This document shows, piece after piece, positions 12,394 to 20,260 of a stretch of 47,039 nt of DNA. This DNA comes from an uncultured Bartonella sp. (GTDB lineage Bacteria > Pseudomonadota > Alphaproteobacteria > Rhizobiales > Rhizobiaceae). The notes under the pieces are model-generated. The model was not told the origin of the DNA. It saw only the letters and a list, made by a program, of their open reading frames with translations, and did no database searches. Numbering within the stretch: the stretch's first letter is position 1; every line of letters starts with the position of its first letter. The translations under genes were made by a program, and so were the position numbers. Where the stretch lies: the NCBI GenBank assembly GCA_945285915.1, contig CALYQL010000018.1:1-47039 (forward strand), given 5' to 3'.

Positions 12394-13806
12394 TTAAACT
12401 GCTGTCCCGCCCAATGTCATGGCATTAATACGCAAATGCGGTAAACCAACACCAACAGGAACACTTTGACCCGCTTTACCACATGTTCCGATACCATCAT
12501 CAAGTTTCGGGTCATTACCAATCATGGTAATACGCTTCATGGCTTCCGGTCCATTACCAATTAACGTTGCGCCCTTAATAGGGGCGACAATTTTGCCGTT
12601 GCGTACACGATAGGCTTCTGTGCACTCAAAAACAAATTTGCCAGAGGTGATATCAACCTGACCACCACCAAAGGATACAGCGTAAATGCCATCTTGCAGC
12701 GAGCTTAACACCTCTTCCGGTGTATATTCACCACCAAGCATCATTGTATTGGTCATCCGTGGCATAGGCGCACAAGCATATGATTCACGACGCCCATTGC
12801 CTGTTGGTTTCATGCCCATAAGGCGGGCATTCAACCTATCCTGCATATAGCCAACCAATTTGCCATCTTCGATAAGAACATTGCGTGCAGATGGTGTGCC
12901 TTCATCATCGATTGTCAATGAGCCACGCCGATCGGCAATGGATCCATCATCAATAACCGTTACACCTTTTGCGGCAACCTGCTGGCCTAAAAGGCCAGAA
13001 AAGGCTGATGTCTTTTTGCGATTAAAATCACCTTCCAGACCATGCCCCACGGCTTCATGAAGCATAACACCCGGCCAACCGCTTGCCAGCACAACATCAA
13101 AAGTTCCTGCTGGTGCCGGTTCTGCTTCAAGATTGACAAGTGCCATTCGTAAAGCCTCATCAGCGGCCATTTGCCAATTTTCCGGTGTAATAAAATGATC
13201 AAAAACCTGTCGTCCACCACAACCGTAAAAGCCATTTTCCATACGCTCACCTTGGGCGGCGACAACCGATACGGATAAGCGGACAAGAGGTCGTACATCG
13301 CGCAGTAAATGCCCATCAGAGCGAAGAATTTCGACATGTTGCATCGAGCCCGCCAATGAAACAGTAACTTGACGCACTTTGTCGTCTTTTTCGCGGATAT
13401 AGTTGTCGATCTTTTGCAACAGGGCTACTTTATCTTCAAATGAAGGGGATTGTAGCGGACTGATTTCTTCATATAGTTTTTTATTGGTGCCAATTGGTGC
13501 GGCACTATAATTTCCACTATAGCCATTGGTAACGGCTTTTGCCGCGTCACTCGCCCGTTTAAGTGCTGCGGCACTTAATTCACCTGCATGGGCATAACCA
13601 GTTGCTTCGCCAGCAATGGCGCGTAAACCAAATCCGGTATCCTGATTATAGGAACCATTTTTCAGGCGACCATTATCATAAAGTAACGATTCGCTTTCTC
13701 GATATTCAAGAAACAATTCGCCATCATCAGCGTTCTTTAGTGTGTTTTGTACCAAAGATTGAACTTCATTGGCGCTGATATCAAATTGATCGATAAGCGA
13801 TTTCAT
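12394..13806 (-). CDS. tldD: Metalloprotease TldD
   Basis: A 470-residue protein of the TldD/PmbA (U62) family. TldD and TldE form a heterodimeric zinc protease that processes small peptides such as microcin B17 and the CcdA antitoxin, and is conserved in many bacteria without those substrates. The zinc site HEAVGHGLEGDFNRK is near residues 255-270, and the C-terminal region (YAVSFGGGQVDITSGKFVFECTEAY) matches the family. AGGAAAA precedes the ATG. It lies downstream of the IalB-like gene on the same strand with a 116-base gap. In related rhizobia it borders the cytochrome oxidase genes, as here. The partner gene is not in the window. Confidence 0.94.
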   Translation of the reverse strand: MKSLIDQFDISANEVQSLVQNTLKNADDGELFLEYRESESLLYDNGRLKNGSYNQDTGFGLRAIAGEATGYAHAGELSAAALKRASDAAKAVTNGYSGNYSAAPIGTNKKLYEEISPLQSPSFEDKVALLQKIDNYIREKDDKVRQVTVSLAGSMQHVEILRSDGHLLRDVRPLVRLSVSVVAAQGERMENGFYGCGGRQVFDHFITPENWQMAADEALRMALVNLEAEPAPAGTFDVVLASGWPGVMLHEAVGHGLEGDFNRKKTSAFSGLLGQQVAAKGVTVIDDGSIADRRGSLTIDDEGTPSARNVLIEDGKLVGYMQDRLNARLMGMKPTGNGRRESYACAPMPRMTNTMMLGGEYTPEEVLSSLQDGIYAVSFGGGQVDITSGKFVFECTEAYRVRNGKIVAPIKGATLIGNGPEAMKRITMIGNDPKLDDGIGTCGKAGQSVPVGVGLPHLRINAMTLGGTAV

Positions 13807-13922: not shown

Positions 13923-14465
13923 CTATTCCTTAGGAAGCGAGTTATAGGCATCTTTCAATCCGTTAAGATCAATCATGCCGCCGACACCTTCCTCAGGTGT
14001 TGTGAAAATAAAATAGGTCGCCATTTTGCCGTCAAGAAAGGCTTTCAAATCATTGTCTTTAAGGAAGGCTTCCGCCACACAATTATCCCCGAGACAACGG
14101 CGATATTCCATTTTGCCCATATCTTTATTGTCTATTTTTATACCAACCCCTAAACGCAATTCAACGCGGATAGGCACAAAAACACGCATCAAGGTACCTT
14201 GATTTTTTGGCAATTTATAAAGCGTAACCCGAAAAGTTATATCAGGACGGTTTTGCGCACGGACATTTTGCACAACCTCACACTGTATATTCGGTGTGCC
14301 GGGGGGCAGTGTACATATCTTTGTCCATGCACCAAATGTTTTTGGGGCGGGGACATTCTGTTGACTAGGTGCTTGACCTTGTGACGTACCCATTGAAAGG
14401 ATACCTACAGACATCAAGATCGCGGCAACGCCACAAGCCCGTTTTAAGAAATGACGAAGTGACAT
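13923..14465 (-). CDS. Invasion-associated locus B (IalB) family secreted protein
   Basis: A 180-residue precursor with an N-terminal signal segment (MSLRHFLKRACGVAAILMSVG) followed by a low-complexity linker and the IalB domain. The domain opens with KTFGAWTKICTLPP and has four cysteines in two spaced groups (ICTLPPGTPNIQC and CLGDNC). IalB was first linked to erythrocyte invasion in Bartonella bacilliformis, but paralogues are common in free-living rhizobia, so the name does not imply virulence. The ATG at 14465 is chosen because AGGAG lies upstream; the frame is open 27 bases further. It is divergent from the CtaD-like gene. Confidence 0.88.
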   Translation of the reverse strand: MSLRHFLKRACGVAAILMSVGILSMGTSQGQAPSQQNVPAPKTFGAWTKICTLPPGTPNIQCEVVQNVRAQNRPDITFRVTLYKLPKNQGTLMRVFVPIRVELRLGVGIKIDNKDMGKMEYRRCLGDNCVAEAFLKDNDLKAFLDGKMATYFIFTTPEEGVGGMIDLNGLKDAYNSLPKE

Positions 14466-14751
14466 AAAAACTCCTGCTCGAATCAGTATCACGTTATCGC
14501 GCTTCCACGTTTATGAAAAGTATCCATCTAGTTTGTCCATAATGCATTCACAATACAGAGTGAATATTTTCCATTATCATGCGCCTTCTAATATGGCAAA
14601 GGCGCAAAATTGTGATCAACACTTCAAAAAATGTTTTTATTTGAGGCCGTTTGTCGCATTGTTTCATCTATGAAATATTGTTACAGCAGAAAAAGGGAAG
14701 CTTTTGCAATGACATTATTGCGCAAGTGTTTTGAATTTATTGGTAAAGTAG

Positions 14752-16254
14752 ATGTCTAAGCACGTTGGAACAGGTCTGTTTTCTTCATTATTGCGTTGTG
14801 ACAGTAAGGCAGTAGGCACGCTTTACTTGATATTTGCAATTGTTGCAGGCGTTATCGGCGCTGTATTTTCAATAATATTAAGATTGGCTTTGAACGGAAC
14901 AGACATTGTATTTTTAAGCAATCTGTTTCCCAGAGATCCGATGTTATTGTCATTTATGAATATGGCACATGCGCTGATTCTGGTATTCTTTATGGTTATG
15001 CCGGCGCTTATCGGCGGATTTGCCAATTGGTTTGTGCCCATAATGATTGGCACACAAAATGTTGCCTTCCCACGGTTAAACGTTGTTGCGCTCGTTTTAT
15101 TGCCATTTTCGGTTGTTGCTGCTTTTACGGCACTTTTCACACTGGCAGAACCCAACCTTTTTAAAACATTGTTGTTTATCAGTATTTTGCTCGGTTCATT
15201 TTCATTTCTGTTTACTTTCGTCAATTTTATTAGCACCATTATAACCATGCGTGCGCCGGGCTTAACTCTGTCCCGTTTGCCTGTATTTGTCTGGTCTGTG
15301 TTGATCGCTTCCTTTTTAGGTCTCATGTCTGTGCCAGCAATGTTGGCTGCATTAACCGATCTTATCTATGCAAAAGATATAGAAATCGAACATTTATCCA
15401 TGATGATCTGGTTCTTTAGCCATCCGGAAGTTTATGTTCTTTTGCTTCCTGCTTTCGGTATCATCAGCCAGATTTTAACAACGTTTTGCAGACGCCGCTT
15501 ATGGATGGAAAATCTTGTCATTGCTGCCATGATTGCAATTGGTGGTATAGGTTTCATTCTATGGAGTCAGGATCTTTTCCATTTTCTTCAACCTAATGCT
15601 ATGGAACGCTATTTTAGTGTGGCATTGCCGCTTATTATCGTTCCAACCGTTTTTATTTTGATTAGCTGGTTTGTAACATTGGTTCAAAGCCGCGTTGCCT
15701 TTGCTACGCCAATGTTATGGGCATCAGGCTTTTTCTTTGTTGTTCTTATGGGGCAGATTTCTGCGATACAACTTATCGCCAGTAATTCAGGTTTAACCGA
15801 GCTTAATAGTTCGGCTTTTGTCGCGCATTTCCACTATATTCTTTCGTTGAGTGCAGTATTTGCCATATTTGCAGGTTGGTATTATTGGTTGCCTAAAATT
15901 ACCGGCTATTCTTGCCGGGTCGCAACAATCAAAATTCATTTCTGGATGATGTTTATCGGCGTCAATGCAATCTTCTTGCCACAGCATTTGCATGATCTAT
16001 CGGCAGGATATCTTTTCACTGCACCACAGGTCAGCATTTTTTCCAGTATCGGCGCAATTCTCGCCGGATTATCTGTCATTGTTTTCCTTTATGGAATTTG
16101 TGAAACACTGAATCGTCGTGTGAAAGTGGGCAACAACCCATGGGGGCAGGGCGCTGCAACATTGGAATGGCAGTTGCCTTCACCACCAGATAAAGCTTGG
16201 GTTAAGGTGCCGGTTATCCATAAAACACATATAGATGCCTCAAAGCGCAAATAG
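14752..16254 (+). CDS. CtaD-like protein: cytochrome c oxidase subunit I homologue lacking the CuB site
   Basis: A 500-residue membrane protein with about 12 hydrophobic segments, clearly related to CtaD (GTLYLIFAIVAG, FFMVMPALIGGF, MRAPGLTLSRLPVF, HPEVYVLLLPAFGIIS, AHFHYILSLSAVFAIFAG). Retained: low-spin haem histidines H73 and H361, the high-spin haem histidine H359, and H224, E226 and Y228 of the HPEVY motif. Lost: the CuB histidine pair of WAHH, here Q273-D274; the K-channel lysine of PTGIK, here I302; the Mg-site HDTY, here NSSA; the haem-propionate arginine pair, here in HDLSAGYL; and the external loop with GWTVYPPL. It therefore cannot be a normal oxygen-reducing subunit. An in-frame TAG just before the ATG fixes the start. 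ctaC is absent upstream, where it would normally lie. Confidence 0.9.
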   Translation: MSKHVGTGLFSSLLRCDSKAVGTLYLIFAIVAGVIGAVFSIILRLALNGTDIVFLSNLFPRDPMLLSFMNMAHALILVFFMVMPALIGGFANWFVPIMIGTQNVAFPRLNVVALVLLPFSVVAAFTALFTLAEPNLFKTLLFISILLGSFSFLFTFVNFISTIITMRAPGLTLSRLPVFVWSVLIASFLGLMSVPAMLAALTDLIYAKDIEIEHLSMMIWFFSHPEVYVLLLPAFGIISQILTTFCRRRLWMENLVIAAMIAIGGIGFILWSQDLFHFLQPNAMERYFSVALPLIIVPTVFILISWFVTLVQSRVAFATPMLWASGFFFVVLMGQISAIQLIASNSGLTELNSSAFVAHFHYILSLSAVFAIFAGWYYWLPKITGYSCRVATIKIHFWMMFIGVNAIFLPQHLHDLSAGYLFTAPQVSIFSSIGAILAGLSVIVFLYGICETLNRRVKVGNNPWGQGAATLEWQLPSPPDKAWVKVPVIHKTHIDASKRK

Positions 16255-16285
16255 TAAATATCATTATTGTCTTGCGCTGTGCTTT

Positions 16286-16454
16286 TATAGGCTAAGTGAC
16301 TTTTGTCTTTATAGTCTAAGCGACTTTTGTTTCTATAATGAGGCAAACTCTTGGCGTCTATAAATAGCGCAACTTCTAACGTTATAAACAAAGCAATTTT
16401 TGGCCTCACACATGAGGCAGACTTTGGCTTTACAAGCCAAGCACTGCATTAACG
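16286..16454. repeat. Degenerate tandem array, seven units of 24-25 bases
   Basis: Units begin at 16286, 16310, 16334, 16359, 16383, 16407 and 16431. The pattern is TATAxxCTAAGCGACTTTTG plus four bases; the first two units are nearly identical and the later ones diverge. The array starts 31 bases after the CtaD-like stop. On the minus strand a frame stays open through units 1-5 and gives octapeptide periodicity (KSRLDYKD, KSHLAYKS), which is expected from a 24-base unit and is not by itself evidence for a protein. Confidence 0.8.
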
Positions 16455-16675
16455 TTGATGCAGTGGTTAATGTCACGGTGATTATATTGACTTATGTTGC
16501 TGGGATTATTTTGCATTTCTCAATTTGTTTGGTCTTGCTTATATATGGTGATTATGGCTTGTTGCGTGATAAAACGGGCAAAGCAATGTAAATGCCTATA
16601 TTAATGGTTGCGTTTTCAGTTTAAAATGGATTGTGTGTCCTTAAAAAATATGAGGGTAAAAGGGGTAAACGTTTG

Positions 16676-17623
16676 ATGGCGACATTAGAGCAAATCACTG
16701 AGCCAGACAAAAGCGAGACTCCATCTGAAGCTGATGCCAACGACTATATGACGCTTTTAAAACCACGCGTTATGTCATTGGTTGTGTTTACTGCTCTTGT
16801 GGGCATGCTGGTGGCTCCAGTTTCTATCAATCCAATTTTGGGTATTGTTGCAATTTTATGCATTGCCGTGGGGGGCGGTGCTTCTGGTGCCTTAAATATG
16901 TGGTACGATGCCGATATTGATGCTGTGATGAAACGCACACAAAAACGGCCTATCCCATCAGGTAAGGTAACAGGCGGGGAAGTTCTGGTCTATGGCCTTG
17001 TGCTTTCCGCATTATCTGTGTTGACAATGGGAATCTTTATCAATTGGTTCTCAGCGGCATTTTTGGCGTTTACGATATTTTTCTATGTTGTTATTTATAC
17101 AATGTGGCTTAAACGCTCGACACCGCAAAATATCGTCATTGGTGGTGCATCTGGCGCATTTCCTCCCATGATTGGTTGGGCTGCTGCGACTGGTACAATC
17201 AGTATGGAAAGCGTTGTTCTGTTCCTTATCATCTTTATGTGGACACCGCCGCATTTTTGGGCGCTCTCACTATTTGCCAAAACGGATTATGGTGCAGCTA
17301 AAATTCCAATGATGCCAAATGTTCGCGGCGAGCGGTCGACAAAAAACCAAATTCTTGTCTATGCCATTATCATGGCGCTCTGTGGTGTAGCACCTTATGC
17401 CATGGGGTTTGCTGGCATCACCTATGGCATTGTGTCGATCGTGTTGGGAAGCATATTTGTTTATCACTCATTTGTGCTTTGGAAGACTGAAACCAAAGAA
17501 GCCACCACACCGGTTGCCAAAAAACTGTTTTTCTTTTCACTGTTTTATCTCGCAGCGATATTTGCTGTTCTTCTTATTGAATCGCTGGCATGGCGAATTA
17601 TGTCCTATTGGGGAATGTCGTGA
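16676..17623 (+). CDS. ctaB: Protoheme IX farnesyltransferase (haem O synthase)
   Basis: A 315-residue UbiA-family membrane prenyltransferase that adds a farnesyl group to protohaem to make haem O, needed by aa3, bo3 and some other haem-copper oxidases. The polyprenyl-diphosphate-binding motif [15 protein letters not shown] is near residues 77-92, the second loop has [12 protein letters not shown], and [13 protein letters not shown] and the [12 protein letters not shown] segment follow. The frame is open from 16631, but the ATG at 16676 is preferred, with AGGGG upstream. The stop overlaps the start of the CoxF-like gene (TGATG). Keeping ctaB while the oxidase subunits are lost or degraded suggests it serves a quinol oxidase elsewhere; that is inference. 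Confidence 0.94.
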
Positions 17624-17769: not shown

Positions 17770-17798
17770 TTGTTTGATTGCATTCCTAAGGGGTGGTT

Positions 17799-18818
17799 AT
17801 GATAAAAAGATCTCCGCTGACAATTCGCCTTTGCGGGCCGCGTGGTTTTTGCGCCGGTGTTGATCGTGCTATTCAAATTGTTATTCTGGCTTTGAAAAAA
17901 TACGGTGCCCCAGTTTATGTTCGCCATGAAATTGTCCACAACCGCTATGTCGTTGAAGGATTACAGGCACGCGGTGCAATTTTTGTTGAAGAATTGAATG
18001 AAATACCGGCAGAACATCACGGTCAACCAGTCATATTTTCTGCCCATGGTGTGCCTAAGTCTGTGCCAGAAGATGCTAAGCAGCTTAATCTCTTTTATCT
18101 TGATGCGACATGTCCCCTTGTTTCAAAAGTCCATAAACAAGCAATGCGACACCAACGGCATGGGCGTCATGTCATTTTAATTGGTCATTCCGGACATCCT
18201 GAAGTGATTGGTACTATGGGGCAAGTTGAAAATGGCTCTGTAACTTTAATTGAAAATGTTGAAGATGCCTTGAACTATCAACCAGCTCCCGGGCAGGAGC
18301 TAGGATTTGTAACGCAAACGACATTATCGGTGGAAGATACTGCCGGTATTATAGATGTGTTACGGCGCCGTTTTCCGACGATAGAAGCGCCAGCGGCAGA
18401 GTCAATTTGTTATGCCACCACCAACCGGCAAGAAGCTGTAAGTGCGGCGGCCCCTGGTAGCGACCTTTTCTTGATTGTTGGCGCACCGAATTCTTCCAAT
18501 TCACGCCGCTTGGTAGAGGTGGCAGAACGGTTTGGAGCAAAACGCGCACTCTTGGTGCAAAGGGCATCGGAAATTGACTTTGAAAATCTTAAAGATATAA
18601 AAACAGTCAGCCTTTCAGCCGGTGCTTCGGCGCCTGAAATAATTGTTGATGAAATCATTACAGCGTTCAGAAAATGCTATGATGTTACTATAGAACTTGC
18701 TGAAACAACGGTAGAAAATGAAACTTTTCTGGTTAATCGTGAGCTGCGCGATGTTGTTTTGACACCTCAGGATATGCAATTTGTCAATGGTGACGGCATT
18801 TCCGATGAGAATAAATGA
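17799..18818 (+). CDS. ispH: 4-hydroxy-3-methylbut-2-enyl diphosphate reductase
   Basis: Terminal enzyme of the MEP pathway, reducing HMBPP to IPP and DMAPP with a [4Fe-4S] cluster. The 339-residue protein has the three cluster cysteines in PRGFCAGVDRAI (C18), DATCPLVSKVHKQ (about 103) and SICYATTNRQ (about 199). The substrate-binding histidines are in VRHEIVHN and GHSGHPEVIG, and the TTNRQ motif is intact. The frame opens with GTG at 17793, but the ATG at 17799 has AAGGGG 5 bases upstream. In related rhizobia this gene follows the cytochrome oxidase assembly genes, and here it sits directly after their remnant. thrB follows after 32 bases. Confidence 0.96.
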   Translation: MIKRSPLTIRLCGPRGFCAGVDRAIQIVILALKKYGAPVYVRHEIVHNRYVVEGLQARGAIFVEELNEIPAEHHGQPVIFSAHGVPKSVPEDAKQLNLFYLDATCPLVSKVHKQAMRHQRHGRHVILIGHSGHPEVIGTMGQVENGSVTLIENVEDALNYQPAPGQELGFVTQTTLSVEDTAGIIDVLRRRFPTIEAPAAESICYATTNRQEAVSAAAPGSDLFLIVGAPNSSNSRRLVEVAERFGAKRALLVQRASEIDFENLKDIKTVSLSAGASAPEIIVDEIITAFRKCYDVTIELAETTVENETFLVNRELRDVVLTPQDMQFVNGDGISDENK

Positions 18819-18850: not shown

Positions 18851-19810
18851 ATGGCTGTTTATACCGACATTAGTGAACAAGAATTGGCATCTTTTTTAAA
18901 AGAATATTCCATTGGGAAACCGGTATCATATCGCGGTATCGCCGAAGGCGTAGAAAACTCCAATTTTATGCTGCATACCGATCAGGGGCGATTTATTCTG
19001 ACACTTTATGAAAAACGGGTTGCTAAAAATGACTTGCCGTTTTTTCTGGAATTGATGCAGCATCTTAGCAAAAAGGGTATATCCTGCCCACAACCTGTCC
19101 TGCGCAATGATGGAACAATGATCGGCGAATTGGCAGGACGTCCTGCTGCCATTGTTACATTTCTTGACGGCATCTGGATGAGAAAACCGGCAGCGGTGCA
19201 TTGCCGTGAAGTTGGCAAAGGATTGGCTGCAATGCATTTGGCTGGTCTTGATTTTTCTATGCAGCGTAAAAATAGTTTGTCAATTGATGCGTGGCGGCCA
19301 TTATGGATGAAATCTCGGGATCGCGCGGACGAGTTGTCACAAGGCATTACAAAAGACATTGATAGCGAACTTGATTATCTTGAAAAGCATTGGAATACAG
19401 ATTTACCGACAGGTGTTATTCATGCCGATCTGTTCAATGATAATGTTTTCTTTTTGAATGATAAATTATCAGGATTTATTGATTTCTACTTCGCATGCAC
19501 GGATATGCTGGCTTATGATTTGGCAATATGCCTCAATGCATGGTGCTTTGAGCGTGACATTTCGTATAATCTGACAAAAGGGCAGGGCATGTTGAAAGCC
19601 TATCGCTCTGTCAGACCGTTAAGTGATAATGAAATAGTAGCTATTCCTTTATTGGCACGGGGGGCTGCTTTGCGGTTTTTCCTCACGCGGCTTTATGACT
19701 GGTTCAATACACCAGCAAATAGTTTGGTGGTCAAGAAAGATCCTATGGAATATTTGCGCAAGCTCTATTTCTTCCGTGATGTCAAGAAGCCATCAGAAAT
19801 CGGCCTATAG
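18851..19810 (+). CDS. thrB: Homoserine kinase (type II, aminoglycoside phosphotransferase fold)
   Basis: A 319-residue kinase that phosphorylates homoserine in threonine synthesis. It belongs to the APH-fold type used by pseudomonads and rhizobia rather than the GHMP type. Visible parts are the nucleotide-binding N-lobe ([15 protein letters not shown]), the catalytic loop [14 protein letters not shown] near 194-207 and the metal-binding segment GFIDFYFAC in place of the usual DFG region. ispH-thrB-rnhA is a conserved rhizobial order. rnhA starts immediately after the stop. thrC, the next pathway step, lies about 8 kb away on the other strand. Confidence 0.93.
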
Positions 19811-20260
19811 ATGAGTAATTCGACTAAGAAAAACGTTGAAGTGTTCACCGATGGTGCTTGTTCTGGCAATCCTGGTCCCGGGGGCTGGGGAGCCATATTG
19901 CGATATAATGGGCATGAGCGGGAATTATATGGCGGTGAACGTGACACAACCAATAACCGTATGGAACTATTGGCTGCTATCAACGCGCTCAATACTTTAA
20001 AAGAACCTTGCTCGGTCGATCTATATACAGATTCCGTCTATGTGCGTGATGGTATTTCGCGTTGGATTGATGGTTGGAAAAACAATAATTGGCGAACAGC
20101 AGCCAAAAAACCAGTAAAAAATTCTGAATTATGGCAGGCGCTTGATACTGCACGGCAACGCCATGAGGTGCGTTGGCATTGGGTAAAGGGCCACGCAGGG
20201 CATCCAGAAAATGAGAGATGCGATGAGCTTGCGCGTAAGGGGGTCAGTGAAAACCGTTAG
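19811..20260 (+). CDS. rnhA: Ribonuclease HI
   Basis: A 149-residue enzyme that cuts the RNA strand of RNA-DNA hybrids. The D-E-D-D active site is complete: the first Asp in [16 protein letters not shown], Glu in NRMELLAAI, Asp in [11 protein letters not shown], and the last Asp in ENERCDELA. The basic handle region ([20 protein letters not shown]) is present, so it is the full bacterial RNase HI form. The ATG directly follows the thrB stop, with no spacer, so expression is coupled to thrB. Confidence 0.95.

Follow-up and report, generated by a model that had tools for sequence, protein, structure and literature searches.

Why would a bacterium maintain a gene for subunit I of cytochrome c oxidase after most of the enzyme's copper site has gone? 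The question is raised by an open reading frame in the window, the whole 47,039-nucleotide stretch of DNA from an uncultured Bartonella sp. that was analysed here. The frame runs on the forward strand from an ATG to a stop (14752..16254, 500 amino acids), and CtaD' is used here as a label for the ctaD-derived product without the CuB site. The initial annotation described an intact, CtaD-derived frame over 500 codons, which is borne out by the open frame and by matches to PF00115 (249.9 bits) and to CtaD_CoxA (TIGR02891). The latter is the best NCBIfam match at 322.9 bits and does not reach the curated cut-off of 670.75. The score against the CyoB model TIGR02843 is 204.2 (cut-off 1020.35), which places CtaD' nearer to CtaD, and no cbb3 model is present among the five NCBIfam families matching at E values up to 0.001. 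The predicted structure model of CtaD' has 12 long helices, the last of them followed only by a low-confidence tail.

In the alignment to canonical CtaD, the haem histidines H73 (codon 14968..14970), H359 and H361 (codons 15826..15834) and the HPEVY motif with H224 (codon 15421..15423) are all present, as had been claimed. We take H73, from established knowledge of CtaD, to be equivalent to a low-spin haem ligand; H361 is the other low-spin equivalent, H359 the high-spin equivalent and H224 the first CuB ligand equivalent. Q273-D274 (codons 15568..15573) replace the CuB His-His pair, isoleucine I302 (codon 15655..15657) replaces the K-channel lysine, and HDTY, the PRRY arginine pair and the GWTVYPPL loop are absent; all of these codons are read on the forward strand. 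The alignment thus agrees with the losses first listed, including that of the His-His pair, but the broader statement that the CuB site is gone holds only in part: because H224 of HPEVY is the equivalent of the first CuB ligand, two of the three ligands have been lost, not all.

A paralogue diverging beside a normal ctaD is rejected, as the only other PF00115 gene in the 2.52 Mb window genome is cyoB-like and no second, normal ctaD was found there. This cyoB-like gene is present in one copy and has the His ligands, the K-channel lysine and the arginine pair; its CyoB-like product is the one true haem-copper subunit I that remains. At the locus itself, ctaD' is followed on the forward strand by ctaB, encoding haem O synthase (16676..17623; TIGR01473, 324.3 bits against a cut-off of 210.3), with a likely ATG start at 16676 in a frame open from a TTG at 16631. 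The conserved right neighbour ispH (17793..18818) comes next, and then two further conserved neighbours, a thrB-like kinase gene (18851..19810) and rnhA (19811..20260, named by resemblance), all likewise on the forward strand. To the left, on the reverse strand, lie an ialB-like gene (13923..14492) and a tldD/pmbA-like gene (12394..13806) that serves as the left anchor of the locus. An RNA element was rejected, with no Rfam match at the gathering score in the window.

The same set of neighbours surrounds canonical ctaD. The order tldD-ctaD-ctaB-ispH-thrB-rnhA is found in 20 of 22 canonical regions of the family, the exceptions being G064, with the ispH block beyond tldD, and the G094 region, which has no ispH. 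The intervals differ in length: between ctaB and ispH lie 2.6-3.8 kb in those 20 canonical regions and 120-410 bases in 11 regions that carry ctaD', and between tldD and ctaD lie 1.9-4.1 kb in the 20 canonical regions and 0.7-1.0 kb in the eight carrier regions reaching tldD. The split ctaB of G212 was counted at full length for these intervals. In the two canonical genomes checked, the ctaB-ispH interval contains ctaG and surf1, and ctaC (COX2) lies between tldD and ctaD. The window locus has neither ctaC to the left of ctaD' nor the canonical insert between ctaB and ispH.

Searches were then considered at three taxonomic levels. Within the genus (71 genomes, the window's own and 70 others), ctaD' is carried by the window genome and 13 of the 70 others at 51-97% identity, with the frame open in all 14. 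In the remaining 57 the matches are limited to long cyoB-like frames at about 31-38% identity. All 14 genus carriers are altered at the His-His position, with D274 invariant and Q, N or S at 273. Five more carriers belong to other genera, namely G026 and G126 (g27), G072 (g73) and the small genomes G111 and G006 (g7), which brings the total to 19. The family search covered 199 genomes, a minority of whose matches were inspected for the His pair. In the order (397 genomes), no CuB-less gene was seen among the 29 best matches besides the window, all of which are canonical. Two protein searches yielded 214 clusters, 192 with the His pair and 22 without it; the GWTVYPPL loop is missing from all 22, and two of them (P0026 and P0123) still have the first histidine of the pair. 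An assembly error is rejected, since the same kind of loss occurs in many genomes and in these 22 clusters. Six regions of non-carriers, five from the genus and one from g7 (G182), retain ctaB, and tblastn found no trace of ctaD in them.

In the trees built here the CuB-less genes have a single origin. In a CtaD tree of 52 rows, the 26 CuB-less rows (13 from genomes and 13 of the 22 CuB-less clusters) form one clade with support of 100/100 and a stem of 1.23 changes per column. In a concatenated tree of the flanking proteins CtaB, IspH, ThrB, RnhA and TldD from 39 genomes, every carrier falls into a single clade (support 100), which also takes in the non-carriers of the carrier genera; the ctaB of G212 was excluded because it is split in two frames. 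An independent origin in each genus is not supported, with one clade recovered in both the CtaD tree and the flanking-gene trees. A composition artefact is also rejected, as the carrier clade stays at 100 after SR4 recoding. Inner placements in the CtaD tree are unsure, with long branches for G006, G072 and G259. The CtaD' of G259 (L125) has a branch of 1.45 and an unusual residue make-up, and the flanking-gene branch of this genome is only 0.19. These trees fit a single event in which the aa3 oxidase was lost and ctaD was kept beside ctaB, to be dropped later in 57 of the 70 other genus genomes. Its absence from those genomes raises the question of whether it was lost alongside a change of host.

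Purifying selection acts on the retained gene. In the ten closest pairs (Nei-Gojobori, dS under 0.25; pairs not independent), dN/dS of ctaD' is 0.074-0.156; G026/G126 gives 0.049, and three more distant pairs, with dS near saturation at 1.2-2.5, give 0.092-0.123. For comparison, ctaB gives 0.023-0.115 in nine of the ten close pairs (L123/L124 left out). At the same time the protein has diverged quickly. CtaD' is 36-47% identical between carrier genera (51% when compared with the genus's most distant member, G259), and for these between-genus pairs the neighbouring proteins reach 59-79%, whereas canonical CtaD is 84-92% identical in seven between-genus pairs whose neighbours are 55-82% identical. 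A set of 26 canonical sequences agrees on one residue in each of 270 columns. This residue recurs in at least 25 of the 26 CuB-less relatives at 58 of the columns and in none of them at 49. Ten positions are newly conserved, being shared by at least 23 of the 26 CuB-less rows and at most two of the 26 canonical ones; they include S187, M197, V256, F276 and I302, the last of which is isoleucine in 23 rows. The combination of low dN/dS with fast divergence indicates that constraint on CtaD' changed rather than vanished.

A slowly dying gene without function is already contradicted by these data, and we give it next to no credence. Such a reading could draw on the fast divergence, the clean absence of ctaD' from the six non-carrier regions and the ligand losses of G006 described below, but dN/dS lies between 0.049 and 0.156 in all 14 pairs and the ten new positions are conserved. 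A pseudogene is rejected, because dN/dS is far from 1 and the frame is open, free of stops and frameshifts, in all 14 genus carriers; the initial annotation had likewise argued that the gene is not dying. Its statement that exactly the catalytic residues were lost is too strong, since many other invariant columns changed, divergence was fast and one carrier has no haem histidine left.

What, then, is being conserved? H73, H224 and H361 are each present in 25 of the 26 CuB-less rows, H359 in 21 and H396 in all 26, with H73 and H361 retained together in 25. In CtaD, helices I, II, X and XI surround the low-spin haem. The mean share of canonical-invariant residues kept in CtaD' is 0.65-0.76 in these four helices, 0.58 in helix VI, 0.50 in III, 0.47 in XII (four columns only), 0.43 in IV and V, and 0.39-0.42 in VII-IX. 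Judged from the alignment, this pattern is compatible with a retained low-spin haem site; it fits such a site and does not prove it. The C-terminal tail, which has no haem ligand, keeps 0.75. Retention of two given ligands is also not improbable, because 58 of the 270 invariant columns are kept in at least 25 rows. The one exception for the histidines is G006 (L210:8927-10255; 1.1 Mb genome), in which H73, H224, H359 and H361 have become Tyr, Tyr, Arg and Tyr in an open frame of 442 amino acids beside ctaB.

These observations bear on several readings, of which the main rivals to a role in haem supply are a haem-free stabiliser of CtaB and a relay linked to cytochrome c. If CtaD' served only as a scaffold that stabilises CtaB in the membrane, its haem histidines would be slowly decaying leftovers. 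The state of G006 and the loss of the H359 equivalent in five of the 26 rows would be expected from such decay, and a role of this kind is suggested for an Acetobacter COX1-like gene in a published study (PMC10715153). Joint retention of H73 and H361 in 25 rows, despite only 36-47% identity between genera, argues against it, as does the persistence of ctaB in eight non-carriers, and we consider the scaffold unlikely. An enzyme with an altered metal site formed in the genus by His224 and Asp274, reducing for example NO or peroxide, would explain why these two residues are invariant in the 14 genus genomes while position 273 varies. Rows from outside the genus, however, have N, S, K or T at position 274, six rows (L118-L122 and P0011) carry Q in place of E226, Ile mostly occupies the K-channel position and the CuB chaperone CtaG is gone, which makes such an enzyme very unlikely. 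A gas or redox sensor acting through an open high-spin haem site is more improbable still: H359 persists in 21 rows that have no CuB, but it is lost in five, and the structure model contains no output domain.

The respiratory gene content was surveyed in 29 genomes, comprising the 19 carriers, eight non-carriers and two canonical controls (G062 and G047). CtaG was found only in the two controls and in none of the other 27. The CuA subunit CtaC was not found in the window genome, whose sole PF00116 match, at 28.4 bits, is weak and resembles CyoA; PF00116 matches in the other genomes outside the controls are also weak and CyoA-like, and there are none at all in G254 and G219. CtaB and SURF1 are each present in all 29 genomes, and CtaA in 28, missing from G182 (g7), which also has no CtaD'. 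The ctaB of G212 (C1:808926-809764) and the ctaA of G242 (C3:839594-840554) are each split in two frames, either by sequencing error or in reality. The PF00115 matches of the carriers are limited to a cyoB-like protein and CtaD', with CtaD' alone in G254 (86% complete).

Cytochrome c1 provides the case for an electron relay, in which the low-spin haem of CtaD' would accept electrons delivered by cytochrome c or the bc1 complex. It is intact in 17 of the 19 carriers (in the window genome at G000:C7:104217-104927), the exceptions being G111 and the 85%-complete G258, yet the PF00115 matches of the carriers include no aa3 or cbb3 oxidase, and CCP/MauG was not detected in the 27 genomes other than the controls. 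The two distributions do not match, however. G111 has CtaD' without cytochrome c1, and the seven genus non-carriers include three with intact cytochrome c1 and no CtaD' (G224, G262 and G219), two with fragments (G091 and G199) and two with none (G168 and G233). With no CuA subunit found and no acceptor known after the haem, we regard the relay as quite unlikely.

The proposed history builds on the observed loss pattern, the single clade and the purifying selection on CtaD'. The ancestor of the clade formed by the window's genus, g27, g73 and g7 would have given up its aa3 cytochrome c oxidase. In this process ctaC would have been lost together with ctaG and everything else between ctaB and ispH, and ctaD and ctaB left in place, although the order of these events is itself inferred. 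From the remaining subunit I, catalytic residues including two CuB ligands and the K-channel lysine would then have disappeared, and the protein would have been retained as a non-catalytic membrane protein. CtaD' may still hold haem, at least at the low-spin site of H73 and H361. It would act as a partner of CtaB and CtaA that takes up or holds haem O or A, and would help to hand haem on to the quinol oxidase of CyoB type or, in the meantime, stabilise CtaB.

We tentatively prefer to see CtaD' as a non-catalytic partner in haem O/A supply that would bind haem in most members, and give this reading somewhat less than an even chance. A role together with CtaB is favoured because two groups of Alphaproteobacteria show the same retention beside ctaB. 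Several points weigh against haem supply. G006 has kept an open frame without any of the four histidines; the two kept ligands are a weak signal against the background of 58 in 270 and the ligand-free tail; and ctaD' and ctaB are about 420 bases apart in the window (16255-16675), so that co-transcription is only putative; in G111 the spacing is about 9 bases. The main objection is that CtaD' is not indispensable for haem supply, because the seven genus non-carriers keep ctaB, ctaA, cyoB and surf1 without it. The more specific idea that an oxidase core was turned into a dedicated holder of haem O/A between the haem synthases and another oxidase, once here and in parallel in Acetobacteraceae, is possible but doubtful.

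It is still an open question by which route haem A or O moves from the synthases to subunit I of the oxidase, and a natural subunit I with haem ligands, without the copper site and beside ctaB would be a handle on the transfer step. CtaD' further shows that a catalytic respiratory subunit can outlive its own enzyme, and it is a warning that annotation of these genomes is no safe ground for inferring a cytochrome c oxidase. Two CuB-less clusters, P0007 and P0008, are called 'cbb3-type cytochrome c oxidase subunit I' in public records, a name that looks wrong.

Compared with known systems, CtaD' resembles CtaD, the A-type subunit I of aa3 oxidase (TIGR02891, PF00115), in its full-length homology, the locus order tldD-ctaD-ctaB-ispH, the predicted COX1 fold and the haem histidines. 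It differs from CtaD in scoring below the TIGR02891 cut-off, in having no three-His CuB site, K-channel lysine, Mg-site and propionate residues (HDTY and the arginine pair) or GWTVYPPL loop, and in residing in a genome in which no CuA-type COX2 (CtaC) or CtaG was found. CyoB, subunit I of bo3-type ubiquinol oxidase, shares the superfamily, but CtaD' falls far under the cut-off of TIGR02843. The NorB-type nitric oxide reductases have a three-His FeB site, of which two histidines are missing in CtaD', and with cbb3-type subunit I it shares only the superfamily.

The closest parallel comes from the acetic acid bacteria. Matsutani et al. 2014 reportedly described functional ctaA and ctaB with a mutated ctaD in Acetobacter pasteurianus. 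A dead COX1 retained beside ctaB is already in print for this one group: PMC10715153, which credits Matsutani et al. 2014, describes a 'deranged' COX1-like gene of Acetobacter that is kept in a cluster with ctaB, probably stabilises CtaB and encodes a protein in which every conserved metal-cofactor-binding residue is missing. Both cases involve a COX1 relic beside ctaB in bacteria whose respiration uses a bo3-type ubiquinol oxidase (PMC10715153), and ctaD' likewise adjoins ctaB in a genome with a ubiquinol oxidase and without a cytochrome c oxidase. No report of ctaD' in Bartonella or Liberibacter was found among the open-licence papers listed, and as far as such listings show, the new elements are a second group, its single origin, the retained haem ligands and the purifying selection measured on the gene. 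CtaD' comes from a different family and order than the Acetobacter gene, with which it is compared here by published description only. Unlike that gene, which is described as having lost all metal ligands (PMC10715153), CtaD' retains the low-spin haem ligands in 25 of the 26 CuB-less rows, and among the aligned rows G006 is the only one that fits the Acetobacter pattern.
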